From Artemia franciscana (Eukaryota > Arthropoda > Branchiopoda > Anostraca > Artemiidae): a stretch of DNA of 64,000 nucleotides. How positions within the stretch are numbered: position 1 is the first letter of the stretch; every line of letters starts with the position of its first letter. The notes beneath the pieces were generated by a model, which worked only from the letters and a program-made list of their open reading frames with translations, ran no database searches and had not been told where the DNA came from. This document shows positions 5,524 through 62,400 of the stretch, one piece after another. The position numbers and the translations under genes are program-made. The stretch spans positions 2,711,355 to 2,775,354 of the forward strand of contig NW_027062649.1 in assembly GCF_032884065.1 (NCBI RefSeq), written 5' to 3'.

Positions 5524-5540
5524 TTAAATAAAAGGAGATT

Positions 5541-5789
5541 TAACTGAAAGTAAGGAGCGAGATTAAAACTTAAAACAAACAGAAATTACTCCGTATATGA
5601 AATGGGTTGTCCCCTCCGCAATCCCTCGCTCTTTACGCTAAAGTTTTTAACTGTTTTAAAAAGTAGAATTGTGGCAAACAGTCAAACTTTAGCGTAAAGA
5701 GCGAGGGATTGCAGAGGGGACAACTCATTTCATATACGGAGTGATTTCCGTTCTTTTTAAGTTTTAATGTCGCTCCTTACTTTCAGTTA
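5541..5789. repeat. 249-bp palindrome of A1
   Basis: Near-perfect inverted repeat with arms of roughly 105 bp and a loop of about 37 bp containing AAAAAGTAGAATTGTG. The inner stem carries GCTCTTTACGCTAAAG and its complement. The unit also measures 249 bp in A2 and A3. Confidence 0.9.
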
Positions 5790-6235
5790 AAAAAAACTAT
5801 TTTTTTATTTAATTTCTGGACGTTTTTGAATTAATGCTGTTTGATTTTGGTTCTCCACACATAAATTATTAAAATTAAATTTGCATATTAATTCTTTTTT
5901 TGGCTAAATGGCTTTCTCTTAGTTTTGATCAGACGATTTTGAGAAATAAGGGGTGGGGAAGGAGGCCTGGCTGCCCTCCAGTTTTTTGGTTACTTAAAAA
6001 GGCAACTAGAACTTTTAATTTTTAACGAACTTTTTTATTAGTAAAAAAATATACGTAACTTAAGAATTAACTTACTTAACAACCTTTTATATTCTTATAT
6101 TTTTATTATGTATATGGGGGGGTTTGTCCCCTCGTTAATACCTCGATCTTAACACTAAATCTTAAGTTTTGTCCCAATTCTTTAAGAATGACCCCTGAAT
6201 CAGAAAGGCCATAGAATAAATAGTTGAAATTACTA

Positions 6236-6309
6236 AAAAATACTTTAGCATAAAGAGTGAGGTATTTATCTCCTCCTAAATACCTCACTCTTTATGCTAA
6301 AGTATTTTT
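6236..6309. repeat. Perfect 33-bp stem hairpin in second module of A1
   Basis: Left arm 6236-6268 and right arm 6277-6309 are exact reverse complements around the 8-nt loop TCTCCTCC. The arm contains CTTTAGCATAAAGAG, a variant of the core stem in the first palindrome, which supports duplication of one module into two. Confidence 0.9.
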
Positions 6310-7226
6310 AGAACCCTCATATTCGTAATAATCTCTGTTAGTTTTAAGTTTTAATGCTACTCCTTACTTTCAATTGAAAAAAACTTTTTCATGTTTATTT
6401 TTTCATTGTTTTTTTATAGTAATGCTAGAAAATCTCGTGCCCTTTTCATTGAATCTCTCTTCCCCCATGACATATTCCTTCAAGGAAAGATCCTCCCACA
6501 TAGGCCCCTCCCCTCAACCCCACCCCAAAACCAAAAAAAAATCCCCCTGAAAACGTCTGTACACTTCCCAATTACCATTACTGTATGTAAACACTAAGTT
6601 TGTAACTTGCAGCCCCTCCTCCAGGGACTGTGGGGGAGTAAGTCATCCCCAAAGATATAGTTATTATAGTTTTCAACTATGCGGAACAAAAGGGCTTTCT
6701 CAAAATTTTGATCCATTGACTTACGGAAAGAATGAGCGTGGGAGGGGGCCTAGATGCCCTTCAATTTTTTTAGATCACTTAAAAACGGCACTAGAACTTT
6801 TCATTTCCGTTAGAATGAGCCCTCTTGCAACATTCTAGGACCACTTGGTCGATAGGATAAAAAAAACACGTACCCGTGATCTTTCTTCTGGCAAAAAATA
6901 CGAAATTCCAAATTTTTGTAGATAGGAGCTCAAAATTTTTGCTATAGGGTTCTCTGATACACTGAATGCGATGGTGTGATTTTCGTTAAGATTCTATGAC
7001 TTTTAGGGGGTGTTTCCCCATACTTTCCATAATAAGGCGAGTTTTCCCAAGCTCGTAACTTTTGATGACAAAGACTAAATTTGATGAAACTTATATATTT
7101 AAAATCAGCATGAAAATTCGATTCTATTGATGTATCTTTTAGCATCAAAATTTCGTTTTTTAGAGTTTTGTTAGACTGTTGAGCCAGGTCGCTCCTTGCT
7201 ACAGTTCGTTACCACGAACAGTTTGA

Positions 7227-12076: not shown

Positions 12077-13839
12077 TCAAACAGTTCGTGGTAACGAACT
12101 GTAGTAAGGAGCGACCCAGCTCAATAGTAAACGAAAACTCTAAAAAACGGAACTTCGATGCTAAAAGATAAATCAAAAGAATTGGATTTTTATGCTGATT
12201 TTAAATATATAAGTTTCATCAAATTTAGTCTTTGTCATCAAAAGTTACGAGCCTGAGAAAATTTGCCTTATTTTGGAAAATAGGGGGAAACACCCCCTAA
12301 AAGTCATAGGATCCTAACGAAAATCACACCATCGAATTCAGCGTATCAGAAAACCCTATAGAAAAAATTTCAAGGTCCAATCTACAAAAATGTGGAATTT
12401 CGTATTTTTTTGCCAGAAGACAGATCACGGGTGCCTGTTTATTTGTTTGTTTGTCTGTTTTTTTTTTTTTTTGGTTTTTTTTCCCAGGGGTCATTGTATC
12501 GACCAAGTGGTCCTAGAGTGTTGCAAGAGCATTCTAACGGAAATGAAAAGTTCTAGTGCCCTTTTTAAGTGACCAAAAAATTGGAGGGCACCTAGGCCCC
12601 CTCCCACGCTCATTTTTTCCCAAAGTCAACGGATCAAAATTTTGAGATAGCCATTTTGTTCCGCATAGTCGAAAACCATAATAATTATGTCTTTGGGGAT
12701 GACTTACTCCCCCACAGTCCCTGGGGGAGGGGCTGCAAGTTACAAACTTTGACCAGTGTTTACACACAGTAATAGTTATTGGGAAGTGTACCGACGTTTT
12801 CAGGGGGATTGTTTTGGTTTGGGTGTGGGGTTGAGGGGAGGGGGCTATGTGGGAGGATCTTTCCTTGGAGGAATATTTCATGGGGGAAGAGAAATTCAAT
12901 GAAAAGGGCGCAGGATTTTCTAGCATTACTATTAAAAAAAAACAATGAAAATATAAACATTAAAAGTTTTTTCAATTGAAAGTAAGGAGTAGCATTAAAA
13001 CTTAAAACGAACAGAGATTATTACGCATATGAGGGGTTCTAAAAATACTTTAGCATAAAGAGCGGGGTGTTTAGGAGGAGATAGATACTTCGCTCTTTAT
13101 GCTAAAGTATTTTTAGTAAATTCAACTGTTTATTCTACGGCCTTTTGATTTAGGGGTCCTTCTTAAAGAATTGGGACAAAACTTACAATTTAGTGTGAAG
13201 AGCGAGGTATTAACGAGGGAACAAACCCTCTCATATATATAATTAAAAATATAAGAATATAAAAGTTTGTTACGTAAGTTAATTCTTAAGTTACGTGTAT
13301 TTTTTTACTAATAAAAACGTTCGTTAAAAATTGAAAGTTCTAGTTGCCTTTTTAAGTAACCAAAAAATTGGAGGGCAACTAGGCCTCCTTCCCCACCCCT
13401 TATTTCCCAAAATCGTCTGATCAAAACTAAGAGAAAGCCATTTAGCCAAAAAAAGAATTAATATGCAAATTTCATTTTAATAATTCATGTACGGAGAGCC
13501 AAAATCAAACATGCATTAATTCAAAAACGTTCAGAAATTAAATAAAAAAAAATAGTTTTTTCTTAACTGAAAGTAAGGAGCGACATTAAAACTTAAAACG
13601 AACAGAAATTGCTCCGTATATGAAATGGGTTGTCCCCTCCTCAATCCCTTGCTCTTTACGCTAAAGTTTGACTCTTAGCCACAATTCTACTTTTTAAAAC
13701 AATTAAAAACTTTAGCGTAAAGAGCAAGGGATTGCGGAGTGGACAACCCATTTCATATACGGAGTAATTTCTGTTCGTTTCAAGTTTTAATGTCGCTCCT
13801 TACTTTCAGTTAAAAAAAACTAGTTTTTTTTTTATTTAA
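12077..13839 (-). mobile_element. Family A palindromic element, copy A2
   Basis: Full-length copy (1763 bp) in reverse orientation. At its left edge is the terminal hairpin (12081-12102, arms ACAGTTCGT/ACGAACTGT, loop GGTA) followed by AGTAAGGAGCGAC. At its right edge is the 249-bp palindrome (13564-13812) followed by TTTATTTAA. Open frames such as 12534-12926 are coincidental and not conserved intact between copies. Confidence 0.9.
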
Positions 13840-16097
13840 TCTGGTATTAAGGTCAAGAAAAAACTGCCTCATCCCACGATTTAAAAAAATTGTTGTGTTT
13901 TGTCTTCAGTGAAAAAGAGAAAAATTATTTGCCTCCCTACATTTTCGTTAATTATTACCCCCTGGAAACTCTCAAAAATGTTAAAAAGGGACATACCTAG
14001 GTGCCCACCTAGCTCAAAGTCTGACAACGTTTTACCTTCACTCACATCGATTTATCCTCCAAATGCACGAATAAACCTTTGTATTGAAGCAAGAGAGAAA
14101 TGGCAGAGCTTACTAAAAACGTACAATTATGCTTGAAAAAACTCTCGGGTATTGGAATTGGGATAATTTCAAACGCTATAATAAATCTTTTCTTAAGAAT
14201 ATTTTTATAGGTTTACTCTAGCTTGTTTTGTTACCCTACCAAGTGTGCCGCCCAGGACGCTTGCTCTCTCTCTCCACCCCCTTTAGATGCACGTCTGAAT
14301 GTGCATCATGAAAATGCTGTTCCAAAAAAGATCAAAAGTGCGGTTCCACTGATGATCACAACTATGATGGGTCATTTCTATTCATCCATATATTCAAGAC
14401 AAAAGAGTGTTAGTTGCAAAGAATAAAAAGAAAAAAAGGAAAGTGCCTAGTGATATTTATCGTGGCCAAAAAGCAGGCTATTTAACAATTGACCATGCTT
14501 CCATTGTTATATATCATAATCATAACCATAATCATAAACCAATGATTGGTTTCAGTCATTATTGGGATTCAAAATAATAATTAATTTTTAAGTTGTTGAT
14601 TGCTTAGTAAAATAGCCGAACTTTAAAGGTTTATTAAAGTCCTGAGTGCAATAATATGGATTTAGCAATACAAATTACTTGCCAGATATACTCTCCGCTA
14701 GTAGAATGGATTTACTTTTTGTTCAAGTTCATTATTGTCTGTGTATAAATGATTGTTTGGTAGATTTCAGCTAGTCATGAATTCCAATTTTGAATTCTTA
14801 ACAATTTTGAATCCTTAAACAATATTTTAGTTTTTGATTATGCAATTATATGTTTTACTCTTCAAGGTTTGCAATTCAGCAATCATATTTTATGAGCCCC
14901 CTTGTTGCTGGTTTATATATCCTGAATCTGTTTTTCCTGATAATCCTGAATCTGGTTTTGTTAGGAGAATAGACATTAGTATTCACAGCTCTTAGTGCCT
15001 CTGCAGATGTTAGCCTTTTTTTTCTCTTTGACTTTTACCATGAGCAACTTTTCTTTTATTCAAAAGACACGCCTGTAGAATTAGTTATTCATTAGTATTT
15101 TGTTGACTCATCTTTTTGTACTATTAATTGCAACTAGAATGTTAATTATTTTTATTAGTTTTTGATTCAACGTTTTTTAATCAAATGATCTCTTATGCTA
15201 ATTTAATCGAAGAGTAACAGTAGCTAAACTTATTTGATTGCCTTTGCAAAAATATAAAAAAAATAAAAGCTTTTATAGTGTTTGTAGCTGATTATAATAT
15301 TTTTAGTAAGTAGCTTGTTAATAAGCCAAAGAGAAACAGAGAGGTAACATTTTTTAGTTTTAGGCTGCACTTCTATTTTTAAATGTGTGCTTCTATACCA
15401 ATGGCTTTAAATGTGTGACGTATTCTTATAAACTAGTCACATTATTTCATATTTCTGGTGAGACAAATAACCCAAACTGTGCCGGGCCATTTCTCTATGT
15501 GCCAATCAGCCAGATGTTAGACCTGCCTTGTGATGTTTTTTAGGGGGGTGGGAGTAATCATTAACCCTTCCCCGAGATTTTTTGCCCTCCTTTTGGATGA
15601 TGAAAATTCCTTCTTTTTTCTTATTCAGTCAAAAATGACTTTTTCGTATTTTTCCAATGCAATTGAAAATTGTCCACCCCATCCCCCAAAATTTTGAAAG
15701 TGCACTCTCAATCCATGAGATTTAATATTACATTCTCCCCTAAATTTTCGTGAAATGACATCACTGGACCTGCGACTATTAAAAGCGAGTTAAAAGAAAT
15801 CTGTTTGGATGTGCAGATTTTTTAGCCAGAAAATAAAAAAGTTTTCCAGTAGCAGTGTCTTTTACAAGCATTGCAAAAACATTGTTCTCTTTAGATAGAG
15901 CCTCATCAACTGAATTTTCTGTCATATTTTCAACCTATATAATTGGCTAATATCTGTAGCTCTCATGTCTGAAAATAATCGTGTTATGACAAGGATATCT
16001 GAAGCCTTCTTATCCGTTGAGTATATCCTTAATATGGAGTTTGTAGATTTCTGATCTTCATAAAAGAGTTCACACTACGTTTTTTTACGTCGTTTTT
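13840..16097. other. No recognisable gene
   Basis: AT-rich DNA. Small open frames at 13900-14136 and 14223-14426 show no family resemblance and no splice context I can defend. Confidence 0.5.
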
Positions 16098-18894
16098 TAT
16101 GGCACTTGGTATTAACCAAGTGACATATAACAATTGCAAATTCTGTCTGTCTGTCAGTCCTGGTTTTGCTACTTTAGGCACTTCCAGGTAAGCTAGGACG
16201 ATGAAATTTGGCAAGCGTATCAGGGACCGGACCAGATTAAATTAGAAATAGTCGTTTTCCCGATTTGACCATCTGGGGGGGAGTGGGGGCCCGGTTAATT
16301 CGCAAAAAACAGAAAAAATGAAGTATTTTTAACTTATCAGCGGGTGATTGGATCTTAATGAAATTTGATGTTCGGAATGATATTGTGTCTCAGAGCTCTT
16401 ATTTTAAATCCCGACCGGATCTGATGATATTGGGGAGAGTTGGAGGGGGAAAACCTAAAGTCCCGGTTTTGCTACTTTAGGCACTTCCAGGTAAGCTAGG
16501 GCGATGAAATTTGGCAAGCGTATCAGGGACCGGACCAGATTAAATTAGAAATAGTCGTTTTCCCGATTTGACCATCTGGGGGGGGGGGAGTGGGGCCGGT
16601 TAATTTGGAAAAAATAGTAAAAATGAAGTATTTTTAACTTATGAGCGGGTGATTGGATCTTAATGAAATTTGATGTTTGGAATGATATTGTGTCTCAGAG
16701 CTCTTATTTTAAATCCCGACTGGGTCTGATGACATTGGGGGGAGTTGGAGGGGGAAAACCTAAAATCTTGGAAAACACTTAGAGTGGAGGGATCGGGATA
16801 AAACTTGATGGGAAAAATAAGCGCAAGTCCCAGATACATGATTGACATAATCGGAACTGATTTGCTCTCTTTGGGGTAGTTGGGGGGGGGGGGGGGAGTA
16901 ATTCTTAAAAATTAGAAAAATGAGGTATTTTCAACTTACGAACGGGTGATCGGATCTCAATGAAATTTGATGTTTAGAAGGATATCGTGTCTTAGAGCTC
17001 TTATTTTAAATCCCGACCGGATCTGGTGATGGGGGCGGGGAGTTGGGAGGGGGAAACCTAAAACTTGGAAAACACTTAGAGTGGAGGGATCGGGATGAAA
17101 CATGGTGGGAAAAATAAACACAAGTCCTAGATAGATGATTGACATAAACGGAACGGATCCGCTCTCTTTTGGGTTGTTGGGGGGGGGGGGGGTATTTCTG
17201 AAAAATAAAAAAAATGAGGTATTTTTAACTTACGAACGGGTGATCGGATCTCAATGAAATTTGATATTTAGAAGGATATCGTGGCTCAGAGCTCTTATTT
17301 TAAACCCGACCGGATCTGGTGACATTGGGGGGGAGTTGGGAGGGAGAAACCTAAAAATTGGAAAACACTTAGAGTGGAGGGATCGGGATGAAACTTGGTG
17401 GAAAAAAAACACGAGTCCAAAAATACATGACTGACATAACCAGAACGGATCCGCTCTCTTTGGGGTAGTTGGGGGGGGGGGTTAATTCTGAAAAATTAGA
17501 AAAAATGAGGTATTTTTAACTTACGAACGGGTGATTGGATCTCCATGAAATTTGATTTTTAGAAGGATATCGTGTCTTCAAGCTCTTATTTTAAATCCTG
17601 ACCGGATCTGGTGACATTGGGGGAAGTTTGGGGTGGGGAAACCTAAAATGATAGGAAACGCTTAGATTGGAGGGATTGGGATGAAACTTGGTTGGAAAAA
17701 TAAGCAGAAGTCTTGCATACGTGATTTACATAATTGGAACAGATCTGCTCAATTGCGGGGGGGGGGGGGGTAATTCTGAAAAATAAGAAAAATGACGTAT
17801 TTTTCACTTACGAAGGAGTGATCGAATCTTCATGAAACTTCATATTTAGAAGGACCTCGTAACTCCGATATCTTATTTTAAATCTCAACCGGATCAAGCG
17901 TAATTGGGGAGGGGGGGGGGCAGTTGGGGGGACCGGAAATCTTAGAAAATACTTAAAGCGATGAGATCAGGATGAAACTGGATGGGAAGAATAGAAACCT
18001 GTCTAAGATACGTGACTGACATAACTGGACCGGATCTGCTCTCTTTGGTGGAATTGGGGGGGGGGGGGGGTAATATTGATATTTGAGGTATTTGTAACTT
18101 ACGAAAGGGTGACCAGATCTTAATGAAATTTGATATTTAGAAGGATCTTGTGCTTTAAAGTTCTAATTTCAAATTCCGACCAGATCCTGTGACATTCGGG
18201 GGAGTTGGAGGGGGGAACCGGAATTCTTGGAAAACATGAAAATTGGAGTATTTTTATCTTACGAATAGATGATCGGATCGTAATGAAATTTGATTTTTAG
18301 AAGGAATTCATGTCTCAGAGCTCTTATTTCAAATCCCGACCAGATCTTTTGACATTGTGGGGATTTGGAGGGGGAAATCTTGGAAAAATACTTGGAGTGT
18401 AGGAATCGGGATGAAGCTTGGTGGATAGAATAAACAAATGTCCTTGATACGTGACTGACAGAATCGTACTGGATTCGCTCTCTTTGGGGGAGTTGGGGGG
18501 AGGGGTTCAGTGATTTGGCGAGTTCGGTGCTTCTGGACGTGCTAGGGCGATGAAAATTGGTAGGCGTGTCAGGGAGCTGCACAATTTGACTTGATAAAGT
18601 CGTTTTCCCAGATTCGACCATCTGGGGGGCAAAAGGGAGAGGAAAAATTAGAAAAAATTAGGTATTTATAACTTACGAATGGGTGATCGGATCTTAATGA
18701 ATTTTGATATTTAGAAGGACTTTGTGACTCAGAGCTCTTATTTTAAATCTTGACCGGCATTAAGTCTCTTATTTTCCTTTTTAAATCAATCTATTGATTC
18801 ATAGAATTTTGTTAGAGCTCATACCATATGATCTCTTGGCTCTTAGCTCTTCTCGCCTCGTCACAAGTGCCATATGAGCTCTTAGCTCTTGTTT
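16098..18894 (+). mobile_element. Family B element, copy B1, with internal ~290-bp tandem array
   Basis: Starts TATGGCACTTG, where a hairpin (arms CACTTGGT/ACCAAGTG, loop ATTA) forms, and ends near CAAGTGCCATATGAGCTCTT. The two ends share an 11-bp inverted motif (TATGGCACTTG/CAAGTGCCATA). A GGCACTTCCAGG head is partly duplicated. Between the ends lie about nine units of roughly 290 bp, recognisable by GATCGGATCTTAATGAAATT at about 16350, 16651, 16951, 17244, 17530, 17818, 18113, 18272 and 18686, separated by G-rich tracts. No credible coding capacity. A Helentron-derived (DINE-1-like) origin is plausible but unproven. Confidence 0.85.
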
Positions 18895-18967
18895 AAAGCT
18901 GTTCTGCTTTTATTCTATATAATTTTATTTTATATTTTATTAATTTATTATATATTTTATTTTGTTA

Positions 18968-18972
18968 TATAT

Positions 18973-19061
<89 letters not shown>
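18968..19061. repeat. TA dinucleotide microsatellite
   Basis: Essentially pure (TA)n abutting the 3' end of the Helitron remnant. Translated frames through it are strings of I and Y and are artefacts. Confidence 0.98.
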
Positions 19062-19065
<4 letters not shown>

Positions 19066-19072
19066 CCTACAC

Positions 19073-20624
<1,552 letters not shown>

Positions 20625-20823
20625 ACAATAATAATAATAATATATATAATAATAATATATAATAATAATAATATAATAATAATAATATATAATAATATAT
20701 GAATAATAATATGTATAAATAATATATATTATATTTTATATATTATGTATCATATATTTTATTATATATTTTATTTTATCATATATTTTATTATATAATT
20801 TATTAATTTTATTTTATATTTAT

Positions 20824-20837
20824 TTTTCTCTTTTCAG
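20824..20837 (+). promoter_or_regulatory. Candidate splice acceptor before the SENP8-like CDS
   Basis: TTTTCTCTTTTCAG directly precedes the exon that contains the start codon at 20851. This implies an upstream exon (probably 5' UTR) that I cannot locate across the TA and Helitron sequence. Confidence 0.55.
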
Positions 20838-20850
20838 ACATGAAGTGATC

Positions 20851-21459
20851 ATGAAGCAAGAGGTCAGCTACAAAAATAGTTTGCTAACTAATGATGACCT
20901 CAAGCTACTAGATGAAGGCAAGTGGCTAAATGACAAATTAATCGGTTTTGCCTTTGAATATATTGAAGATGCTTACCCAAAGTGTTTACTGGTTAGTCCA
21001 GAGGCTACTCAGTTGTTAAACTTGGGTTCTCCAGAAGATGCCAGCTCCGTTTTGTCTTCTTTAAATGCTGGTGAAAAAGATCTAATCCTATTCCCTTTGA
21101 ATGATTGTATAACCCCAACAGAAATAGGCGGTAGTCACTGGAGCCTATTGGTCTTTGATGTAAAAGCAGGACAGTGTTTTCATTTAGATTCGTCACTGGA
21201 TTTCAACTTTCAAACTGCTGCCAGATTTTGTAAAAAATTATCTTTGCCTTTTATTTCTCCATCTAATGTTAAAAGTATAAATTGTGTACAGCAAAAAAAT
21301 GGGTATGATTGTGGTATTCATGTGATTTGCAATGCTAATCATATACTCGACAATTATTCAAAAGGAGTGCCTCTGTTTGAGACATTAGGTGATGTAACTA
21401 GCTATAAACACAAAAGGAAAGAGATGAAAACTGCAATTCTTAAATTACTTAGTAATTAA
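20851..21459 (+). CDS. SENP8/NEDP1-like NEDD8-specific cysteine protease
   Basis: Predicted 202-residue C48-family (Ulp1-like) protease. Human SENP8 has 212 residues, so this is full length. Family members remove NEDD8 from cullins and other proteins and process pro-NEDD8. The catalytic set is intact: His96 in GGSHWSLLVFD, Asp113 in CFHLDSS, oxyanion Gln148 and nucleophile Cys154 in VQQKNGYDCGIHV. The N-terminal block LDEGKWLNDKLIGFAFEYI is typical of SENP8. ATG at 20851 is chosen because the ATG at 20840 runs into TGA. A splice acceptor lies at 20837, so a 5' UTR intron is likely. The single coding exon could also indicate an old retrocopy, though no poly(A) scar is evident. Specificity for NEDD8 over SUMO is inferred from size and overall resemblance. 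Confidence 0.88.
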   Translation: MKQEVSYKNSLLTNDDLKLLDEGKWLNDKLIGFAFEYIEDAYPKCLLVSPEATQLLNLGSPEDASSVLSSLNAGEKDLILFPLNDCITPTEIGGSHWSLLVFDVKAGQCFHLDSSLDFNFQTAARFCKKLSLPFISPSNVKSINCVQQKNGYDCGIHVICNANHILDNYSKGVPLFETLGDVTSYKHKRKEMKTAILKLLSN

Positions 21460-38636: not shown

Positions 38637-38936
38637 ATTTTGTTTTAATTATTCTTGGATGATGAGCCAAAATCAAAACCTGCATTAATTCAAATGTGTA
38701 CAGAAATTAAATAAAAAAGGTTTTTTCTCTGAAAGTAAAGGAGTGACATTAAAACTTAAAACTATAACTAAACAGAATTGATTCCGTATATGAAAGGGGC
38801 TATCCCCTCCTCAACGCCCCGCTCTTTACGCTAAAGTTTCATATTGTTTTAAATAGTAGAACTGTGACAGAGTCAAACTTTAGCGTAAGGAGTGGGGGTG
38901 TTGAGGAGGGGACAGCCCCTTTCATATACGGAATCC
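38637..38936 (-). mobile_element. Family A partial copy A5
   Basis: Contains the palindrome region with the usual arms (TGAAAGTAAAGGAGTGACATT, CGCTCTTTACGCTAAAGTTT, AACTTTAGCGTAAGG). It lacks both element ends. The left side is replaced by the head of B3. Confidence 0.8.
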
Positions 38937-43217: not shown

Positions 43218-43846
43218 GGTAAAATTCTAGTTAATTGACTTCTTGCTAGGCTATCTCAGAAAGGGTTTAGGTTAGGAAAATGAAACTTTCAGGGATAAAT
43301 CTACAGGCTAAAGTATGTCCTGGGAAAGTATTTTAAAGTACCCACCTCCACTCCATCTCCCTCTAGAGGGCCCTGAAATTTGCCTAAATGATAGGTCTAT
43401 ACCTATTGAAATTTCGACAAAACAACATTTTACCTTGATTTTCAGTTACCAGTTGCTTTTTCTCTGCCTTTAGTTCTGTAATTCCTGTTATTTGAGTAGA
43501 ATTTTGAGCCATATCAATGTTTTTTTTTTCAGAATTTAGGAAATGTATTTGCATATCTTTAAAACCTTATAAAATAGAATTGAGCAAAGTTATGATGCTG
43601 AAAACAATTTTGTTGTGCTTCAATTAAGCAGAAGATCTATTTTGCAACCATTTCACTTTTATAACACACATATTTTTAAAGGTCATCAAAGGTCAAGGGC
43701 CTCTAGAGGGAGAAGGCATGGAGGTAGTTGCTTCAAAATACCTTCCTGGTACATACTTTAGTCTGTAGATTTATCCCTGAAAGTTTCATTTTCCTAACCT
43801 AAACCCTTTCTGAGATAGCAAGAAGTCAATTAACTAGAATTTTACC
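43218..43846. mobile_element. Palindromic MITE C1
   Basis: 629 bp with terminal arms of about 165 bp that are reverse complements. The left end is GGTAAAATTCTAGTTAATTG and the right end CAATTAACTAGAATTTTACC. The arms contain GAAACTTTCAGGGAT and CCCTCTAGAGGG. The core is AT-rich. The right flank is RTE-like sequence. Confidence 0.85.
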
Positions 43847-45900
43847 AATTTGAGAATATGCTAAAGCAAGATAGAGTTGCAGGAAAAGGTATAGGCTAGA
43901 GGAAGCTAAAAATGTTTTTGTGGTATGTTAGATGTGAAGGTTTGTTTTGTGAGGAAGTAGGCCTATTAGTGACAGTACTTAAAGGATCAAAAAATAATAA
44001 GGCTCCAGGTACTGATAGTTTGGTAAATGAGTTTCTTAAATATGACAGCTCTGAGGTTAAAAATAAGCTAGGCTACTGAAGAGTAGCCTATGAAGTATCA
44101 ATTACACCACTGTATAAGACAGGTGATAAGAGCAAGTGCAGTTAAAATTCTAGTTTAGTGACTTCTTGCTATTTTGGAAAGGGGTTAGGTTAGGAAAAAT
44201 GAAACCTTCAGGGATGGGTCTACAGGCTAAAGTATGTCCCAGGAAGGTATTTTGAAGTACCTACCTCCACTCCCTCTCCCTCTAGAGGGTATTGACCCTT
44301 GATGACCTTTAAAAATATGCATCTTATAAAAGTGAAATCTTGCAAAATAGATCTTCTACTTGAATAAAGTATAACAAAATTGTTTTCAGCTTCACAACTT
44401 TGCTCAATCCTAATTTATAAGATTTTAAAGATATGCAAATACATTTCCTAAATTTTGAAGAAAACAACAACATTGAAATAGCTCAGAATTCTACTCAAAT
44501 AACAGGAATTCATTTTCAGAACTAAAAGCAGAGAAAAGGTAACAGAAAACTAAGGTAAAATGTTGTTTTGTCAAAATTTCAATAGGTATAGACCTGTCAT
44601 TTAGGCAAATTTCAGGGCCCTCTGGAGGGAGAAGGAGTAGAGGTGGTTACTTTAAAATACCTTCTTGGGATATACTTTAGCCTGTAGACCCATCCCTGAA
44701 AGTTTCATTTTCCTAATCTAACCCCTTTCTAAGATAGCAAGAAGCAACTAAACTAGAATTTTAGCCAAGTGCAGTAATTTTTGAGGCATTAGTCTGGTTT
44801 TGGTAGATTACAAATTGCTTAGTAATATGATACTCCTTAAACTGAGAGATACAGTGGACAAAGTTTTAAGAAAAGAGAACAGCATGGTTTTAGAAACAGT
44901 AGAGGAGATGTCAGCAAAACTTTAACTCTTAGATTAATAATTGAGAAGTGCCTGAGTTGTTAAATACCTTTGGTTGTCAATTTTATAGATTTTGAGGAGA
45001 GTTTTGATACTGTTTATAGAAAAGCTTTAGCAAAGGTCTTATCCTTGTATGGTATACCAGACAAACACATTAAAGTGGTTAGTGCTATGTACAAGAATAA
45101 CCCTGCTACAGTTAAAGTAGGAAATGAATTTAGCAGCTGGTTTTCTGTTAAATCAGGAGTTAGGCAGGATTCTGTTCTATCCCTCTAGGTTGTATGGATC
45201 ATTTTAATAGACTTTGTCTTAAGGAGCACAGGAAAGGCAATGGGAGACCACACAATCAAATAGGGAGGAAAAACTCTCCCAGACTTAGATTATGCTGATG
45301 ATTTAATCATCCTAGATGAAAGTATAAGCAAAAGATGAATCTTTAGAGGTTTTGTGAGTTCAGGGAACTAGAATAGGCTTGAAAATTAATGCAAAGAAGA
45401 CTAATTCACTAAGGATAGGAATAAGAGACAATGAGAAGGTGATACTGGGTAACAAAAAGATTGATCATGTTGGCAGCTTCACTTACCTTGGTAGTATTAT
45501 TAGTAAAGACAGTTGGAGTAGTGAGGATGTTCAAAGTAGAATAGCCAAGGCACAGGGTGTTTTTTTTCACAGTCAAAACAGACTTTGAAAGAATAGGAAG
45601 ATAGTCTACAAACCAAGATTAGAATATTAGAAACTACAGTGATGACAGTGGACAAATATGGCTCTGAAGCATGGGTGCTCTAAAAAGTAAATGAAGATTG
45701 GCTAGATGTTTTCTAGAGAAATTGCCTATGGACTGTTCTAGGTTCCTGGCTGACTTACCATATTTCAAACAGTAGGCTATACAAAAAGTATGGTTCAATC
45801 CTGCTTTCCAGGGCTGTAATGAGAGAAAAATTGAGATGGCTAGGGCATGTTCCATGGATGAAGGCTCTGGTATATCTCACTGTAATTAACCTAACTTCAC
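43847..45900 (+). pseudogene. RTE-like LINE remnant carrying MITE C2
   Basis: Collinear with 2960-3600 plus 9465-10300. It has a NNKAPGTDSLVNEFLKYD block (43995), ITPLYKTGDKSKC (44100) and, after MITE C2, GISLVLVDYKLLSNMILLKL (44785). It continues with MVVNFIDFEESFDTVYRKAL (44970-45030, catalytic Asp block), VGNEFSSWFSVKSGVRQDSV (45115), LDYADDLIILDES (45285), MKINAKKTNSLRIGIRDNEK (45379) and IDHVGSFTYLGSIISKDS (45460). The C-terminal blocks run to about 45855. Stops and frameshifts throughout. Confidence 0.88.
44143..44766. mobile_element. Palindromic MITE C2 with target duplication
   Basis: Same element as C1 with its core in the opposite orientation. The flanks repeat AAGTGCAGT (44134-44142 and 44767-44775). 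Removing the element and one flank copy restores the RTE frame DKSKCSNF. A TSD of 8-9 bp and long TIRs fit hAT- or Mutator-type MITEs. Confidence 0.85.
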
Positions 45901-48543: not shown

Positions 48544-50023
48544 TTAAAATAAAAAAAAACAAGTTTTTTTTAAATGAAAGTAAGGAGCGAGATTAAAACT
48601 TAAAACGAACAGAAATTACTTGTTTTTTTTATTTAATTTCTGGACGTCTTTTAATTAATGCATGTTTTGATCTTGGCTCTTCTTACTTAAATAATTAAAA
48701 CGAAATTTGCATAATAATTTTTTTGGCTAAATGGCTTTCTCATAGTTTTAATCGGAAGATTTTGAGAAAAAAGGAGAGAGGGAGGAAGCCTAGTTGCCCT
48801 CCAATTTTTTGATTACTTTAAAAGGCAACTAGAACTTTTAATTTTTTTACGAACATTTTCATTAGTAAAAATTAAACGTAATTTACGAATTAACTTACGT
48901 AACGAACTTCTATATTCGTATGTTTTTATTGCGTATATGAGGGAGTTCACCCCTCGTCGATACCTCGCTCTTTACACTAAAGCTTTAAATTCTGTCCCAA
49001 TTCCTTAAGAATGACCCTTGAATCACAAAGGCTGTAGAATAACTAGTTGAAATTACAAAAAATACTTGAGCGTAAAGAGCGAGGTATTACGAGGAGGTAA
49101 ACCCCTTATATGCGCAATAATTTCTGATCGTTTTAAGTTTTAATGCTGCTCCTCACTTTCAGTAGAAAAAAAACTTTTCATATTTATTTTTTCATTGTTT
49201 TTTTTTAATAAAGCTAAAAAATCCTGCGCCCCCTTCATTGAAAGCCTCTTCTCCCATGAGAAGTTTTTCCATGGAAAGATCTTCCCAAGTAACCCCCCCA
49301 CCTCATCTATCCCTCCCAAACCAAAAAATCCCCCTGGAACGTCTGTACACTTCCCAGTAACCATTACTATATGTAAACACAGGTCAAAGTTTGTAACTTG
49401 CAACTCCTCCCACGGGGACTTTGGGGGAGTAAGTCGTCCCCAAAGACATAGTTATTAGGTTTGTCGACTATGGTGAATAAAACGGCTATCTCAGAATTTT
49501 GATCCGGTGACTTTGGAGAAAAAATGAGCGTGGGAAGGGGCCTAGGTGCCCTCCGACTTTTGGACACTTAAGAAGGGCACTAGAACTTTTAATTTCCGTT
49601 AGAATGAGCCCTCTTGCGACATTCTAGGACCCCTGGATCGATACGATCACCCCTGGGAAAAAAACACGCATCCGTGATTTGTCTTCTGGCAAAAAATGCG
49701 AAATTCTACATTTTTGTAAATAGGAGCTTGAAACATCTACAGTAAGGTTCTCTGATACGTTGAATCTGATGGTGTGATTTTCGTTAAGATTGTATGACTT
49801 TTAGGGGGTGTTTTCCCCTATTTTCTAAAATGAGGCAAATTTTCTCCAACTCGTAACTTTTGATAGGTAAGACTAATCTTGATGAAAGTTATATATTTAA
49901 AATCAGCTTAATAATGTGATTTTTTTAAAGTAACTATTGGTATCAAAATTCCGTTTTTTAGAGTTTCGGTTACTATTGAGCCGGGTCGCTCCTTACTACA
50001 GTTCGTTACCACGAACTGTTTGA
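48544..50023 (+). mobile_element. Family A element, copy A4, lacking the first palindrome
   Basis: Both ends are present (TTAAAATAAAAAAAAAC at the left; hairpin arms ACAGTTCGT/ACGAACTGT and TTTGA at the right), but after ACAGAAATTACT the sequence jumps directly to TGTTTTTTTTATTTAATTTC. It has therefore lost about 200 bp of the 249-bp palindrome. The second module with its hairpin (49000-49130) remains. Confidence 0.9.
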
Positions 50024-53335: not shown

Positions 53336-53532
53336 AGCCTGTTGTTCAATTTTCATAGAGAGAGAACTATTATCCAGCTAAGCATATTTATAAATCGAAA
53401 TGGAATGTTAGGTCTTTGAAGGACAAATTCATATTATGAGTTATTCTTTAATTTAGAGTTGCTGAGTACTTTCATATTTTTCACCTTTAGTACCTATAAT
53501 GCCTGTGATTTGGAATACTTATTTATATCTTT

Positions 53533-53545
53533 CGTTTCATTTCAG
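53533..53545 (+). promoter_or_regulatory. Candidate splice acceptor upstream of the BTB start codon
   Basis: TTTCGTTTCATTTCAG ends at about 53545, 40 bp before the ATG. This implies a 5' UTR intron and argues that translation starts at 53586, not at the earlier in-frame Met of the open frame. Confidence 0.5.
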
Positions 53546-53585
53546 TGAGTTTGTCTTCTTCAAGGATTTTGTTCTTATTCCTGGA

Positions 53586-54413
53586 ATGGAGCAAGAAGAA
53601 TTTTGTTTGAAGTGGAACAACTACCTGGATGTATTTCATGGAGCTTTTTTATCTATATTAAACAGTGAGAACTTCACAGATGTCACCCTGTTTTGTGACA
53701 GCCAAAGCATCAAATGTCACAGACTTATTCTCTCATCTTGTAGTTCCTACTTTGAAACACTGTTTCTTGGGATATCACACCCCCATCCTATTATAATTCT
53801 AAAAGATGTGAAATTTCATGATCTGCAAGCTTTGGTAAAATTTATGTATACAGGTGAAGTGACTGTTCCACCAGCTCAAACTAGGTCATTAGTAAAATTG
53901 GCTGAAATGCTTAAAGTTAATGGTCTTGCATATTCTAATGAGACAGCTACCCAGATACAGAAACCTAGATATCCCTCTCAAAACTCTCAAATTACTCAAC
54001 CGGCTACGGAGGGAGACAGAGTTGATACAACTTGTGAAAACAGTATCTTGGCTGAAGATTCTTCCAGTGATCTTGAGCCTCCTGTTGCAGATACCTTAAA
54101 TGATAGCTTTGTAAACTATCCTTCTAATTCTAGTTCCTCTGTTTATAAGACAGATATTGGTGCATGCAACTCACTAGTAAGTTTTTTTTTATTGAAGTTC
54201 ACTTTATTCAAAATAAAGTGCCTAAAAGATGGTTATGTATTTAGTTCCTCTGTTTATAAAACAGGTATTGCTGAATGCAGTTCACTTGTAAATTTTTTTA
54301 ATTGAATTTCCCTTCAGTCAAAGTTCAGTGATCAATGGATGATTATATATATTTAATTTTAATTTTTGTTTCAGGAAGACTCTTGGCTAGGTTACAGCCA
54401 AAAGATAGCATGA
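53586..54413 (+). CDS. BTB/POZ-domain protein of the tramtrack type (5' exon plus possible short terminal exon)
   Basis: The exon 53586-54176 encodes 197 residues. The BTB domain (1-118) reads MEQEEFCLKWNNYLDVFHGA, then FTDVTLFCDSQSIKCHRLIL, SSCSSYFETLFLG, IIILKDVKFHDLQALVKFMY, TGEVTVP and LAEMLKVNGLA. This is the arthropod tramtrack/bric-a-brac-type domain that mediates dimerisation of nuclear regulators. A Ser/acid-rich linker follows. GTAAGT at 54177 is a good phase-0 donor. A second in-frame donor, GTAAAT, is at 54288 within a tandem duplicate. An acceptor at 54366-54374 (TTTGTTTCAG) would add EDSWLGYSQKIA and a stop at 54411-54413, giving a 209-residue DNA-binding-domain-less isoform. 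Alternatively the gene splices onward to distant zinc-finger exons outside the window. ATG chosen by conservation of the MEQEEFCLKWNNY opening. Target genes unknown. Confidence 0.85.
54131..54350 (+). repeat. 111-bp tandem duplication spanning the exon end and donor site
   Basis: TAGTTCCTCTGTTTATAA begins at 54131 and 54242. Each unit includes the final coding segment (SSVYKT-I-C-SL) and a donor-like site, GTAAGT in the first and GTAAAT in the second. The reading frame is open across both. Confidence 0.9.
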
Positions 54414-56744: not shown

Positions 56745-58365
56745 CCGCTGATTATCCCGTATATAAAATGGCCCGTTCTCTTCAACGCCCCGCTCATTAC
56801 GCTGAAGTTTTTTATTGCTTTAAAAAGTAGAATTGTGAGAAAGTCAAACTTTAGCCTTTACCGAAAATTAAATAAAAAAAACGAGTTTTTTTTTAAACTG
56901 AAACGAAAGAGTGACATTGAAACTTAAAATAAACAGAAATTATTCTGTATATAAAATGGCCCGTTCTCCTCAATGCCCCGCTCTTTACGCTTAAGTTTTT
57001 TATTGCTTTAAAAAGTAGAATTGTGAGAAAGTCGAACTTTAGCGTAAAGAGCGGGGCGTTCAGGAGGGGACAGCCACTTTCATATGCGGAATAGTTTCTG
57101 TTCGTTTTAAGTTTTAATGTCGCTGCTTACTTTTAGTAAAACTAACTTGTATTTTTATTTAATTCCTATTTTTTAAGTAATGCTGGAAAATCCAGCGACT
57201 CATTCATGGAAATTCCCATGAGAAATTCATCCCTGGAAAGATCCTCCGACGTAACCTCGCTAAACTTTTGATTGTTTTCGAGAAAAAAAAATTCTTATTG
57301 TTCTAATAAACAACCCTTGCGTTGCAGGAGTCGTTCTTAAAGGACTTGGACAAAATTCAAGCTGTAGCTTAAAGAGCAAGGTATTTAGGAGGGGGCCATC
57401 CGCTTCGTATTCATAATAATTTCCATTTGTTTAAGTTTTAATATTGCATTTTCACTTTAAGTCGAAAATTTAATTTTTTCTTAAATAATATTGGTAAATC
57501 TGATTCCACCTTCTCTGAAACATTCCTTGCAACGTAAAGGTCCTCTAGACAATTCAATAGTAATACTTCTTTCATAACTCACCACAGCACCAAGCCGCCT
57601 GAAGTCAACAACAGCTATGCATGCTCCTTCTCCATCCCAATCTACTCAAAGCCTATCTATTTACACCCTCCCAAGAAGTTCTAATTCCCCTTAAATCTTT
57701 TCTCAAGTCTTCCTCCCACCGCTACCGAGGACAAGCGGCTTTCCGTTTAGCCCTAGATGGTTGGCCAAGAATGACAATCTTTGGCAATCTGTCACCCATC
57801 ATCTGCAGAACGTGCTCCATCCATCTCAGCCTTTCTCTCATTGTAGCCCTAGCAAGCGGGATTGAACAATATTATTCATATAGCCTACTTTTTAAAATAC
57901 AGTTGGTCAGCTTTTGGACCTTTCTGCTATGCTGGACAGAATGGCTATCCCAAAATTTTGATAAGACAATTTTGAGGGGAAAGGGCGTGTGAGGGGGACC
58001 ACTGGCCCTCTAATCTTTTTGGTCACTTAAACAGGACAATATAACTTAATTTCCATTAGAATGAGCCCTTTCCCAATATTCTAGGGCTATTGGTTCAATA
58101 CGATCATTCCTGAAAAAAAAAACACAACAAACAAAGATGTATCCGTGTTCTTTCTTCTGGCAGAAATACAAAATTCCACATTTTTGCAGATAAGAGCATG
58201 AAACCTCTACAGCAGGGTTCTCTGATATGCTAAATCTAATGGTGGGATTTTCATTAAGATTCTTTGACTTGAAGGAGGTTGTTATCCCCTTTTTTGAAAA
58301 TCAGGCAAATTCTCTCAAGATAATAGCCTTTGATTGGGATCAATGAATTTAATGAATCTTATGAG
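56745..58365 (+). mobile_element. Family A element, copy A6, degenerate and interrupted
   Basis: Begins with an extra half-palindrome (56755-56860), then TTAAATAAAAAAAACGAG at 56868, the full palindrome (to about 57140) and module sequences to 58365. The terminal hairpin is missing. A minus-strand RTE fragment sits inside it at 57570-57910. Confidence 0.8.
57570..57910 (-). pseudogene. RTE-like LINE C-terminal fragment inside A6
   Basis: The minus strand reads MRERLRWMEHVLQMMGDRLP, KIVILGQPSRAKRKAACPR and the tail GGCGGCTTGGTGCTGTGGTG, matching the RTE fragment at 39886-40175. Confidence 0.8.
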
Positions 58366-58560: not shown

Positions 58561-58792
58561 CAAAGTAACGTGAAGAAAATTATTACCTTCTGCTTATCAG
58601 GATAGCTTCTAGTTTGGCTGTCCCCTCAAATGCCTCTACGTGTAATTATTATTTCTAATGTTTAAATATTTTCCAAAGTGTAGGGAGTGGGCAATTTTGT
58701 CATTTTTTCAACTATTTTCAGTGAAAATACCAAAAGGCTTATTATCTATTAAGATATAGAGATATAGAATAGTAGATGTTTACTGCTCAGTG

Positions 58793-61194
58793 CAGTGTTT
58801 CCACTTCATGATGGCGATTCTCCGTTCTGGTTGACAAAAAAATCCTAAAAATTCCGACGACTGAGAACGAAAAATCCGTCAAATTTTCCGTTAAAAAATC
58901 CTAAAAATCCACAAAAAAATCTGCTCAAATAGAACTCTTGTGGTAAGCAGTTGCTACAAGCAGAACAGTGTGCTCTGTTGAAACACTTCCTGGAGTTCAA
59001 TGCTGCCCTTAAGAAAGATTCCACGAGATCCGTGTGCAGTCAAATGAGAAAAAAAAGCTAAAAATTCCATTTATTCACTTCTTGAAAAGGTGGTGTGAAC
59101 GGGATAGATAAGAGGGTTGAAAAAATGATGCACTGGCTACTTGAATTTCACCTAAAATATCGTCAAGCCGAACTGCGGATCAGTAAGTGCGTTCTTACCC
59201 AGAGTGTTCTTTCGAGTTTACATCTCGTTTCTCCCTTTTTGTGTTTTTAATGTAACTAATGACCCCCCCTCCCAGAAAGATACCAAAAGAGTTTTAAGAC
59301 CGATGTTTAACAGTTCATGGATATTTTTCATATAGTCCAGAATGTCGCCGAGTATCTCGTTGCCTGTAAATTGCTAAATGAATCCCGCAACTATCTCATT
59401 GTGAAAAAGACCACAACTCTATGAAACCAAGTGTGTCAGTGGCACTTCTGCTTGAGTTGGACTAGAGTATATCTCGGAACGCTCGTTTATCCGTCTATAG
59501 ACTACAATTCCTATCTGATCGTACAGCTCAAACATACAATGTTCTGTTAAGTGGTATACAAATCAGCCTGTTGTCTAAATTATTAGACAGCTAAGCTAAC
59601 TCAGTAAAAACTGTCCTTTTATCGTGATAGACTACGATCTGCAGTTACTTTGGGCAAAAGAGAGCTCGACGGATTTGATGTGTATTTACGGTAGACCTAT
59701 TAGAACTCATGAAGGCCAATAGCTCGGAAGCTAGCTCCTTTGAAAGCCTCGAAATTTTGAGAAAATACACGCTTAGTAACTAGAACGGATACGGATATCG
59801 ATTAACTATAATATGTAATGCTGTATAAAAAAAAAAAACAACCATTTTCTGGGGTACTGGGATACAATGGAAATCAGCTACCACTGCATGTTGGCGACGG
59901 CATCAGCTCCAGAAACAAGAGCTTCACGTTGTATACTAGCTAGTGTTTGACACTCTTCAACCGTCATGTTTGCCTTGACCGACATGATTCTTTTGGTCAG
60001 CTTTTGGTTCAGCATGATCGATTTGGAGTGAACGTTTATTCTTCTCATCCCTGGCTTCGTTTGCATCGCAGTCCTTAGCGAGATGATTCCAAATTTTGAT
60101 GTTTTTTAGGACAATAAAAATATGTTCAACGACGGCGTATAAGAATGGTAGCGAAAGCAAATACCTAATCACGACCATGCCGTTTGCAAACCATGGACTT
60201 CCAGTGGGAGTATTGATCTCGGGAATCTTTTTCCAGAAGCCCAAAGTTTCAGTACTTTTGGGGAGGTCTGAGACCAGCATTTCCCGCCACTCTTCCTGAA
60301 TGCTTTTAGCATTCCAGTTCAGAAGTTCGTATTTGAGAAGAAATTTTGATAGTTTTATTGGAGCTGTCGAGTTGGTGGCCATCACAGGATCTAACAGATC
60401 AGCGTATACGAACATTTCGTCGTCAAATACGAATCTTTGCTGTAGCTGCTTAATCGCCTCGACGTAAAGACAAAGGGCTGACAAATACACCAAATTAACA
60501 GAAAGGTCTTCAGTGCGAGTTCTTTGGTTTGACTGCAACGTCTCCAGAGATTCACAGGCGAGTATCCCAAGATATAACTCTTCCAAAGCAAAGTATTCCC
60601 TGATATTTTCAGGGTTCAACTCTAGCGCAGACGTCCCTTTGACGTAGGCTGCTTTCATAAGGTTTATTGACAATCTACGGATCAGCAGCTTCACTTCTGG
60701 CTGAATGATGGAAGAGCGGCTTTTTGCTCTAGAAGATTTTGTTAAAATCATTGAATAACTCCAGAACATAGCTTTCAAATTCTAACTTGATTCTCAGAAG
60801 TGTATTAGCCAACTCCCTGAATAAATAAATCGCAGGAATCAACTTGACCTGATGACTCACTGTATAGCTCACGCATGCTTGAAGAGTAGATACGACTTGA
60901 TCGTGTTAACCCCAAACCGGTTTCTGGACTGGAGTAGGTGAGCTAATTAGTCCGGGAATCAACTGTGGTTGAATAATAGTCGGAACAGAAAACAACAAAG
61001 AAACAACAGTAAAGATTAATACTTAAAAAGGTCAGTGTGATTTGAGAATAAAAACAACTAAGTTCAATTCTTACGTAAAATCTTAGAAATTCCGTCAAAA
61101 ATCCGGAAATCCTACAGATTAAATTCTCATCCGTCGAAGACCCTTTGACGAAAATCTGTCTTTGACGGAAAAATCCGTCAAAGTGGAAACGCTG
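58793..61194 (-). mobile_element. hAT transposon with TIRs and perfect 8-bp target duplication
   Basis: 2402 bp. The left end is CAGTGTTTCCACTT and the right end (reverse complement) CAGCGTTTCCACTT, matching 13 of 14 and the CAGNG start typical of hAT elements. Flanks are GCTCAGTG at 58785-58792 and again at 61195-61202. Subterminal CCGTCAAA-type motifs cluster near both ends (58860-58915 and 61085-61185), as in hAT transposase-binding regions. The transposase gene on the minus strand is broken and short, so the element is probably immobile on its own. Confidence 0.92.
59878..60778 (-). pseudogene. hAT-type transposase remnant
   Basis: 273-codon frame (60778 to 59957) that appears to continue, after a frameshift near 60000-60060, into a second frame ending at 59878 (KANMTVEECQTLASIQREAL). 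The diagnostic block is GSPWFANGMVVIRYLLSLPF followed by VVEHIFIVLKNIK, the hAT C-terminal dimerisation region (usual form LxVxxxxLSLPHSNAxVERxFS). Here the SNAxVER core is changed to LYAVVEH. An upstream helical region (EALYVEAIKQLQ-like, KLSKFLLKYELLNWNAKSIQ) fits the RNase H-fold insertion domain. The N-terminal catalytic part and BED finger are missing, so it is inactive. Confidence 0.75.
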
Positions 61195-61370
61195 GCTCAG
61201 TGTGTCCGCGCTGGAGTTGCAACGGTAATAAACACCAAGCTTTCCTCGGGCCTTGAGCGGGTAGCCGTTCTACAGACCATGGGCCAAATGATAATGTTTT
61301 CTGGAATTGTTTTAGTGGAGAGATTACATGCACTCGTTAAAGAGAATAAACATATGCAAATGTGGTGATA

Positions 61371-62400
61371 TCAAAGAGTTCTCGGTAACGAACTGTAAGT
61401 GAGGAGTGATGCGGCTCAATAGTAACGGAAACACTAGGAAACAGAGTCTTGACAACAATGGACATATCAAAGATTTGAAATTCGCTGCTTATCCGAATTA
61501 TATAAAATTCATACAGTTTAATGTCGCCCATCAAATTTTGTGACCCTGTGAAATTTTGCACAATTTTTGAATAAGGGAGGAAATACCCCCAAAACATTCA
61601 GTGATTTTCACGGAAATTATCCAAGATTATTATTTTTCCAATTATTATTTTTCCAGGGGTTATTGCATTGAACTAATGATCTTAGAAGATCGGGAGAGGG
61701 GTCCTTTAACGGGAAATCAAAAGTTCTAGTGCCCTTTTTAAGTAATAAAAATATTGCAGGACAGCTCCCATGCCATTTTTCTCAAAGTCGTCCAATCAAA
61801 ATTTTAACATTTTTTTTTCAGCTAAGCCCAATGATCTAATTACTAGTTCTGAGGATGAACACAGCCCCAGAAAAAGGCCTGCAAGCTAAGAACTTAGTCC
61901 ATTGTTTAGGTATAGCATTGTCTATTGGGAAGTATACAAATACTTTTCGGGGAGGGGGGATTACGTGAAGGATCTTTTCATATAGGAGCTTTTTGGAAGG
62001 GAAAGGAATTTCCCATGGAGGCTGGATTTTCTGGCATTATTTGAAAAAAAGCAATCGGAAATTAAATAAAAAAAAGAAAACAAGTTTTCAACTCAAAGTA
62101 AGGAGTAACATTAAAATTTAAAACGAGCAAAATTTATTACGTGTGAGGGGTTTGCCCCCTCCTGAATATTTCGCTCTTTGCGCTAAAGTTATTTTAAACT
62201 TTTTATAAAAGTTATTTTTCTTTTCAAACGTTCCTTATGTTTCAGGAGTCATTTTTAATAACTGGAAAAATTAGTCAAACTTTCGAGTAAAGAGCTAAGT
62301 ATTGGGGGGGAGGCAATTCTCCTCTTATACGTATTAATTTCTATTCGTATTGTTTTAATGTTGCTTCTATCTTTCAGGTGAAAAACTTGCTTTTTTTTTC
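61371..62400 (-). mobile_element. Family A element, copy A7, short
   Basis: Left end with a degenerate terminal hairpin (TCAAAGAGTTCTCGGTAACG) followed by AGTGAGGAGTGATGCGG. Right end with the palindrome region (TCAAAGTAAGGAGTAACATT to ATGTTGCTTCTATCTTTCAG). Only one module remains, about 1.03 kb, diverged more than the other copies. Confidence 0.8.

Follow-up and report, generated by a model that had tools for sequence, protein, structure and literature searches.

The Helentrons are part of the same wider group as Helitron2 (PMC5148889). In the description of Helitron2, the 5′ hairpin forms when the 5′ repeat pairs with bases downstream of it, and the 3′ repeat lies immediately 5′ of the 3′ hairpin (PMC3627910). 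The complementary repeat follows the 5′ repeat after 3–22 bp in the account given for DINE-1 (PMC4067079) and after 1–12 bp in that given for the HINEs of C. gigas (PMC7492417). Here, we describe family A, a multi-copy element found in a 64,000-nt stretch of Artemia franciscana (contig positions 2711355–2775354; hereafter, the window) and searched for in the genome of this species (1.27 Gb). The class of this element is itself ordinary; what is new is that the two arms of its 5′-terminal palindrome (P1) evolve in concert and that the loop between them has been repeatedly inverted. To our knowledge, the intermediate of Helitron2/Helentron elements is not settled. A limited literature search found no published description of giant 5′ hairpins, loop flips or concerted arms in Helitrons, and no word starting with “palindrom” is present in the main text of the Artemia genome paper (PMC11492255).

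Family A is a genuine non-autonomous element of about 1.7 kb with sharp ends (TTAAAT...TTTGA). Its 39-base 3′ end was found exactly 16,730 times in the genome (8,388 + 8,342; reversed control: 0) and its last 19 bases at the 3′ terminus exactly 34,943 times (reversed controls: 0), with the next base (+1) being T in 24,376 cases (69.8%) and A, C or G in 10,567. The best 40 of 5,368 candidates matching the 3′ part of copy A1 yielded 39 loci outside the window (numbered L; copies within the window are A1 to A7), and this choice of query skews the sample toward A1-like copies. The 3′ end was located in all 39 loci with at most three changes, and both ends were identified in 28 genome copies, or 32 copies when including A1–A4. 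Most of these 28 copies (24) measure 1.4–1.9 kb and the remainder 0.96, 2.36, 2.58 and 2.64 kb. L056, counted among the 28, really consists of two copies, a nested copy (N1) that supplies P1 and a host copy (N3) that supplies the body, which were split in our counts unless stated otherwise. Within the window, ACAGTTCGT occurs 8 times (0.24 expected) and AGTAAGGAGCGAC, with up to two mismatches, 13 times (0.74 expected); none of 100 shuffles scored as high in either case. A1, A2 and A3 can be aligned over their full length with 77–89% identity, and A4 presents 80–81% identity to these copies when the 5′ palindrome is excluded. The first-pass annotation of the window had proposed a multi-copy family with seven main copies and no conserved open reading frame. 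The family is confirmed by the motif excess, the alignments and the number of exact termini; A1–A4 are indeed two-ended, and the three others are a fragment (A5), a rearranged copy without 3′ end (A6) and an old, eroded copy (A7). Its statement on reading frames is not contradicted: when comparing stop-to-stop frames of at least 130 residues, only one was found in any copy (A2).

P1 spans the first base of the element to position ~290–304, with arms of ~120–130 bases and a loop of 41–45 bases. Folded as DNA, P1 of the most regular copy (L071) reaches −153.7 kcal/mol relative to −27.8 for shuffles (z = −31). Of the 27 copies whose P1 end is defined, all except L056 and L060 have a body that follows P1, and inspection of its sequence identified L060 as a genuine copy with a deletion at the P1/body point. 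A 13-base repeat starts 26–36 nt inside the 5′ end of A1–A4, and its complement is located at ~245–255 in the far arm of P1 (missing in A4). The repeat is also found 39 from the 3′ end, immediately 5′ of the 3′ hairpin, and ends 26 nt from the terminus, such that the 13-bp inverted subterminal repeats first annotated near both ends were recovered in A1–A4. The 3′ hairpin lies 4 nt from the end and its stem is followed by TTGA, not by TTTGA as had been stated. The 9-bp arms reported for this hairpin are exact in A2, A3 and A4 and altered in A1 and A7; the fold of the A3 hairpin beats 200 of 200 shuffles (z = −5.3) and that of A1, with its altered stem, 188 of 200 (z = −1.8). In A1 (5524–7226, + strand; alignment and end search), palindrome and loop comparison places P1 at 5524–5815 (+) with an upright loop, and motif search places the 5′ subterminal repeat AGTAAGGAGCGAG at 5549–5561 (+), its complement in the right arm of P1 at 5769–5781 (−) and the 3′ subterminal repeat at 7188–7200 (−, one mismatch). 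The 3′ hairpin of this copy, with one stem change and the TTGA tail, occupies 7201–7226 (+; motif search and folding).

The element had been annotated as palindrome-bearing, with giant palindromes considered foreign to its group. The palindrome reaches the 5′ terminus itself. The same plan has been described on a small scale for Helitron2 (PMC3627910), and the palindrome is more plausibly the short 5′ hairpin known from this group, expanded to a very large size: the “giant palindrome” would be the element’s own 5′ terminus, an enlarged hairpin of the Helitron2 type. In addition, the body contains P2, a second and decayed 5′ end that carries an arm and a subterminal repeat of its own, and P2 includes a short hairpin (H2; 6236–6309 of A1, + strand, from alignment). 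Blocks of the body are also duplicated in A1 (5906–6021 and 6689–6806). P2 and these blocks are what would be expected of self-insertion followed by one-ended copying, as in the model published for FoHeli of Fusarium, which gives two 5′ termini comparable to P1 and P2 (PMC5148889). Separately, the family A copy at L061 (1665–2931) contains three tandem repeats, 97% identical, of a 422-bp unit that combines P1 with the body start; this array is satellite-like, lies within the element, and all three loops found there are upright.

We analyzed the evolution of the arms in 25 copies over 98 core columns. The P1 core is present in 29 of the 32 two-ended copies, or in 30 copies once L056 is split; copies without this core, the duplicates L050 and L058, and copies without a clean right end (L059, L077 and L060) were left out. 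Arm identity within a copy is 0.954 on average (range 0.897–1.000). Between copies, it is 0.910 for left arms, 0.907 for right arms and 0.908 for left against right arms, showing that P1 arms have no side-specific history. Departures from the arm consensus were identical on both arms in 68 cases, restricted to a single arm in 111 and differing in 2. When arms were re-paired at random, 12.6 both-arm departures were obtained on average with a maximum of 40 in 2,000 trials, and none reached 68. Changes private to one copy affected both arms in 10 cases (0.42 double hits expected), one arm in 52 and differed between arms in 2. In total, 22 of 50 arms match their partner at least as well as the best same-side arm found elsewhere. 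The other 28 are closer to the same-side arm of a relative, as expected if correction precedes insertion. The internal palindrome served as a comparison: the outer arms of P2 are 0.645 identical within a copy and 0.911 (left) and 0.912 (right) between copies (22 copies), and those of H2 are 0.819 identical within a copy relative to 0.913 and 0.948 on the same side (24 of 30 copies). Related sequence is corrected at the terminus (P1) and uncorrected internally (P2).

The loop of P1 is upright in 22 of the 30 copies and inverted in 8 (L048, L057, L063, L069, L070, A3, N1 and N3). A looser scan of 17 loci added three inverted loops (L051, L073 and L075) and four upright ones (L039, a duplicate of L062, as well as L044, L053 and L076). 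We then placed the loops on a tree of the bodies of 25 copies, in which 9 of 22 inner branches are well supported and 10 are drawn open. The inverted pair L048 and N3 (100/100) branches beside an upright clade (L042, L066 and L071) at a fork supported by 100/99, and the inverted L063 falls in a clade with the upright L046, L047, L049 and L061 (100/98). From these two placements, the loop has flipped separately at least twice within the common loop subtype. The other loop subtype is inverted in A3, L069 and L070 and upright in L060. N1 and L070 are not placed by the body tree.

The target site of family A was determined from the flanks and from two pre-insertion sites. Base −1 is A at 30 of 32 sites and base +1 is T at 23 of 33 (with the false 5′ flank of L056 excluded and the nested copy included), and a few target sites in these counts duplicate one another. 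Position +2 is A at 20 of 32 sites and positions −6 to −12 are T-rich, in a count made before L056 was split. The joined flanks of L062 (GTCA^TAAAA) match L048:2691–2972 (84%) and window 1888–2159 (76%); neither relative presents a duplication or a loss at the junction, where a one-base shift is possible on either side. At L079 and L056, N1 (− strand) is nested within the right arm of N3’s P1 at an A^T target, and the two parts of N3 rejoin without loss around N1. At these two sites, insertion occurred between A and T and left no target duplication, the latter in agreement with the first-pass annotation. An origin of L056 as an inverted dimer from replication around the hairpin was rejected, since one copy is nested in another. 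Two further comparisons were set aside: the nesting of L048 in an old copy is too diverged to place the junction, and the comparison of L045 with L071 is too weak (71%). Window 1888–2159, the uninterrupted relative of the L062 target, represents a further repeat family in the window.

The 3′ end is directly joined to the 5′ end at 148 exact head-to-tail junctions in the genome (reversed control: 0). Among 100 places listed, four pairs of junctions are 510–1,722 bp apart on the same strand (C3:36.96, C4:50.99, C5:25.35 and C14:8.65 Mb), which suggests arrays of at least three units. Exact head-to-tail joins are described as circle products of Helitrons (PMC4778049); an identical join would arise if a copy inserted itself into the A^T at the 5′ border of another. 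The lack of duplication at two sites, the 3′ hairpin, the adjoining subterminal inverted repeats and the head-to-tail junctions make the assignment of family A to the rolling-circle class well supported. A terminal inverted repeat transposon, a miniature inverted-repeat transposable element or a foldback element was rejected: the ends are not inverted repeats of each other and neither pre-insertion site carries a duplication.

Within this class, the Helitron2 description fits the anatomy at least as well as HINE/DINE-1, the group to which family A had first been assigned. As in the published account of Helitron2, each end of family A carries a hairpin, its inverted repeats are short and asymmetric (8–15 bp in Helitron2, 13 bp here), the 3′ repeat is found directly upstream of the hairpin (~20–30 bp from the end in Helitron2, 26 nt here) and the 5′ repeat pairs with bases downstream (PMC3627910). 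Helitron2 usually inserts without duplication at a T-rich target, comparable to the T-rich positions −6 to −12 described above, the exact step in family A being A^T; some relatives of Helitron2 carry duplications, unlike family A (PMC3627910). Compensatory changes of the end structures have been noted in two related elements (PMC3627910). Family A differs by its 5′ stem of ~130 bp and its A^T target, and loop inversion and fully concerted arms are not described in the part of the Helitron2 account available to us (PMC3627910). With HINE/DINE-1, family A shares the 13-bp subterminal inverted repeats, the complementary repeat at the 5′ end and the 3′ stem-loop or palindrome (PMC4067079, PMC7492417), as well as a very high copy number and tandem repeats in some copies. 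However, the complementary repeat lies ~200 bp away in family A, where it belongs to the distal arm of a giant hairpin, and the T^T target with Ts on both borders is absent. The initial assignment is partly supported: it stands for the rolling-circle anatomy, the subterminal repeats and the 3′ hairpin, and membership of HINE/DINE-1 itself is not demonstrated, as the target is A^T rather than T^T and our searches recovered no Rep/helicase/endonuclease gene with these ends. FoHeli presents inverted repeats, a 5′ hairpin, an A–T step target and joined ends similar to those of family A (PMC5148889), but it is fungal and autonomous, with short hairpins. Finally, canonical Helitrons such as Helraiser share the insertion at A^T, a 3′ hairpin acting as stop signal and exact head-to-tail junctions (PMC4778049). 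Their ends are TC...CTRR with a hairpin 10–12 nt from the terminus, compared to TTAAAT...TTTGA and 4 nt in family A, and they lack the 5′ hairpin and the subterminal inverted repeats, both of which family A possesses.

We further examined when the arms are corrected. Unpaired arm changes amount to 0.0229 per site, 0.73 of the mean end branch of the body (0.0312), which indicates that arms drift after insertion almost like the body. Two loci were duplicated after insertion (L049/L050 and L047/L058) and loop orientation agrees within each pair. Five unpaired columns that predate these duplications (3 + 2, one of the latter being a gap beside a substitution) are kept in both daughters, and three newer unpaired columns also remain unpaired. 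Correction in place looks slow in these loci, and correction in the mobile lineage nearly complete.

Taken together, family A probably belongs among the non-autonomous rolling-circle transposons of the Helitron2/Helentron group, and its hairpin would be corrected and flipped in the mobile intermediate. A Rep/helicase acting in trans would nick the 5′ end, peel off one strand and halt at the 3′ hairpin; the released single strand, or circle, would fold its 5′ end into the giant hairpin. Arm mismatches would then be erased in the folded hairpin through mismatch repair, through the use of one arm as template for its partner, or through recombination on the circle, and the opening or crossing of the hairpin would occasionally leave the loop inverted. 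A new insertion would thus start with nearly matched arms and drift with little further correction. More tentatively, transposition itself could regenerate the 5′ end, which would become a single-stranded hairpin at each cycle, with one arm rewritten from the other and the loop free to invert. Such renewal would give a eukaryotic rolling-circle transposon a hairpin-transfer step comparable to the one used by single-stranded DNA genomes with hairpin ends. Terminal hairpins of the parvovirus type exist in two orientations (flip and flop); their likeness to family A is functional only, and we saw no sign of self-primed replication from the family A hairpin.

The main competing explanation is that conventional gene conversion acts between the inverted repeats while they sit in the chromosome, as in the palindromes of sex chromosomes, with loops flipped by crossing over and transposition uninvolved. 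Gene conversion is described as homogenizing other palindromes (PMC3723533, PMC8981503), and it would account for both the concerted arms and the flips. We nevertheless consider it somewhat unlikely, since all five older unpaired columns remain unpaired in both daughters of the two duplicated loci, loop orientation is the same within both pairs, and unpaired changes amount to 0.73 of the body rate. Once the class of the element is granted, we give about equal weight to correction during transposition, which we infer, and to correction in place. Several observations weigh against correction in the mobile intermediate or against the Helitron2-type assignment. Unpaired changes do not follow age, being uncorrelated with the end branches of the body across copies (rho = 0.16, P = 0.44), and the copy with the longest branch, N1, lacks unpaired changes altogether, as in-place correction would likewise produce; both points favor gene conversion. 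Correction in place was tested by two duplicated loci only. The arms of P2 were less alike initially, and this mismatch, rather than their position, may explain why they are not corrected. L057 has its body among upright copies (at a weak fork) and a loop of the other subtype, which suggests that exchange between copies may have occurred as well. The 5′ repeat lies 26–36 nt inside the element, compared to the 0–2 bp described for Helitron2 (0–4 for the group), and A^T is the target of canonical Helitrons. Finally, no autonomous element with the ends of family A was found, in searches that do not exclude one.

Another candidate mover is the abundant canonical Helitron of this genome, which, rather than a Helitron2-type enzyme, would mobilize family A through diverged ends. 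A PF14214 profile search revealed a homogeneous canonical Helitron (the best 150 of 7,436 candidates were all above the cut-off) with open frames of up to 2,091, and this class inserts between A and T. Its Rep motif, examined in 30 loci, reads GLPHAH in 14 and GLSHAH in 1, the 15 others having no long frame on the strand read. We regard this mover as unlikely, because the 3′ terminus of the canonical Helitron at L078, where CTAG comes after a GC-rich hairpin, bears no likeness to the ends of family A, and because family A has subterminal inverted repeats and no TC...CTRR ends. The canonical Helitron was also rejected as the source of family A, its ends being different in the only copy followed as far as the 3′ terminus (L078). 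This copy (L078:1405–6393) carries an open Rep/helicase frame of 1,663 residues with many near-identical Rep matches genome-wide, and a second copy, 88–89% alike, lies in tandem behind it; judging from these sequences, it looks recently active.

The search for a partner of the Helentron type was no more successful. The GSPH-type motif pattern was found at 31 places (control: 1), seven of which read QQRGSPHIH. This family (L083, L084 and L090) presents, by eye, Helentron-like protein pieces and an endonuclease-like C-terminal piece. Its 3′ region, used as query, had 54 matches (best 40 of 2,533 candidates scored), and the family was rejected as partner since the one 3′ end compared differs from that of family A. 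L090 contains a faint stretch similar to the family A 3′ end, which lies outside this Helentron family because the other listed copies stop by position ~431 of L090, before this stretch, except the locus itself and one near-identical place. L085 (QLRGSPHEH) was also rejected, with no open frame above 120 residues in the 3 kb examined. The genome search and copy alignment proposed by the first-pass annotation thus yielded sharp ends and two empty sites and no full-length relative with the same ends; neither the consistent duplications nor the DDE transposase partner that it named as evidence against its classification was observed, yet these searches identified no partner at all. The 28-place pattern of the family A 3′ end had zero exact matches in viral and bacterial/archaeal contig collections, and Rfam (gathering threshold) and ARAGORN returned no match in the window.

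Selection on a P1 transcript, acting either as a structural RNA or as a long hairpin from which small RNAs are made, could also maintain the pairing through compensatory changes. P1 would indeed form a very long RNA hairpin, judging from its sequence (the fold was computed as DNA), and the paired changes resemble compensatory ones; this explanation is nonetheless highly improbable, as it predicts neither the inversion of the loop nor the interchangeability of left and right arms. An assembly error is likewise highly improbable, in which palindromes built from noisy long reads and polished with short reads would only simulate concerted arms and flips: palindromes are hard to assemble and the A. 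franciscana assembly was built from PacBio Sequel reads and Pilon (PMC11492255), but both-arm changes are common to different loci of one subfamily (L066/L071; L046/L049), unpaired differences outlast polishing, and duplicated loci agree.

Besides A1, the window contains two further copies with P1 on the − strand, defined by alignment, end and loop analyses: A2 (12077–13839), with P1 at ~13537–13840 and an upright loop, and A3 (27844–29509), with P1 at ~29210–29510 and an inverted loop. A4 (48544–50023, +; alignment) has both ends and starts with TTAAAATAAAA, its 5′ palindrome being almost wholly deleted. The remaining copies were defined by alignment. A5 (~38628–38932, −) is a fragment without element end that comprises a 5′-truncated P1 with an inverted loop and the body start. 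A6 (56745–58365, +) is rearranged, with P1 at 56867–57163 and an upright loop, and its TTAAATAAAA sits near 56868, not 56745. A7 (61371–62400, −) is short and old; its palindrome (~62060–62400) lies at the 5′ end, which has eroded, and its 3′ hairpin is imperfect.

Several other features were observed in the window. Two mutually related arrays of a G-rich repeat with a period of ~295 bp are found at 16067–18801 and 36515–38268, and the edge of one of them is close to fragment A5. Low-complexity repeats of the TTTTTAG and GTGTCCCGGTCGTCATTTG types occupy 18911–20669; the latter resemble, by eye, a GTGGGACACAGGGACAC stretch with which the canonical Helitron nearly ends. A second large palindrome, a nested long inverted repeat (43250–43450/44538–44738 and 43650–43809/44179–44338; respectively, 90% and 84% complementary), spans 43250–44738 and had no match in the family A search. 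Protein-coding features comprise an Ulp1-type protease (20719–21459), a non-long-terminal-repeat retrotransposon with endonuclease and reverse transcriptase (24706–27696), an Hsp70 with a signal-like start (30546–32498; BiP-like by eye) and a BTB domain (53466–54305).

If transposition itself regenerates the 5′ end, the paired changes and flips carried by tens of thousands of copies would constitute a natural log of the intermediate. With the internal, formerly terminal palindrome and the duplicated loci acting as controls, the passage of the 5′ end through a folded single strand becomes testable by counting. Helitrons are reported to represent 8.81% of the A. franciscana genome (PMC11492255); family A may explain part of this share, and it supplies ends for the annotation of these elements.

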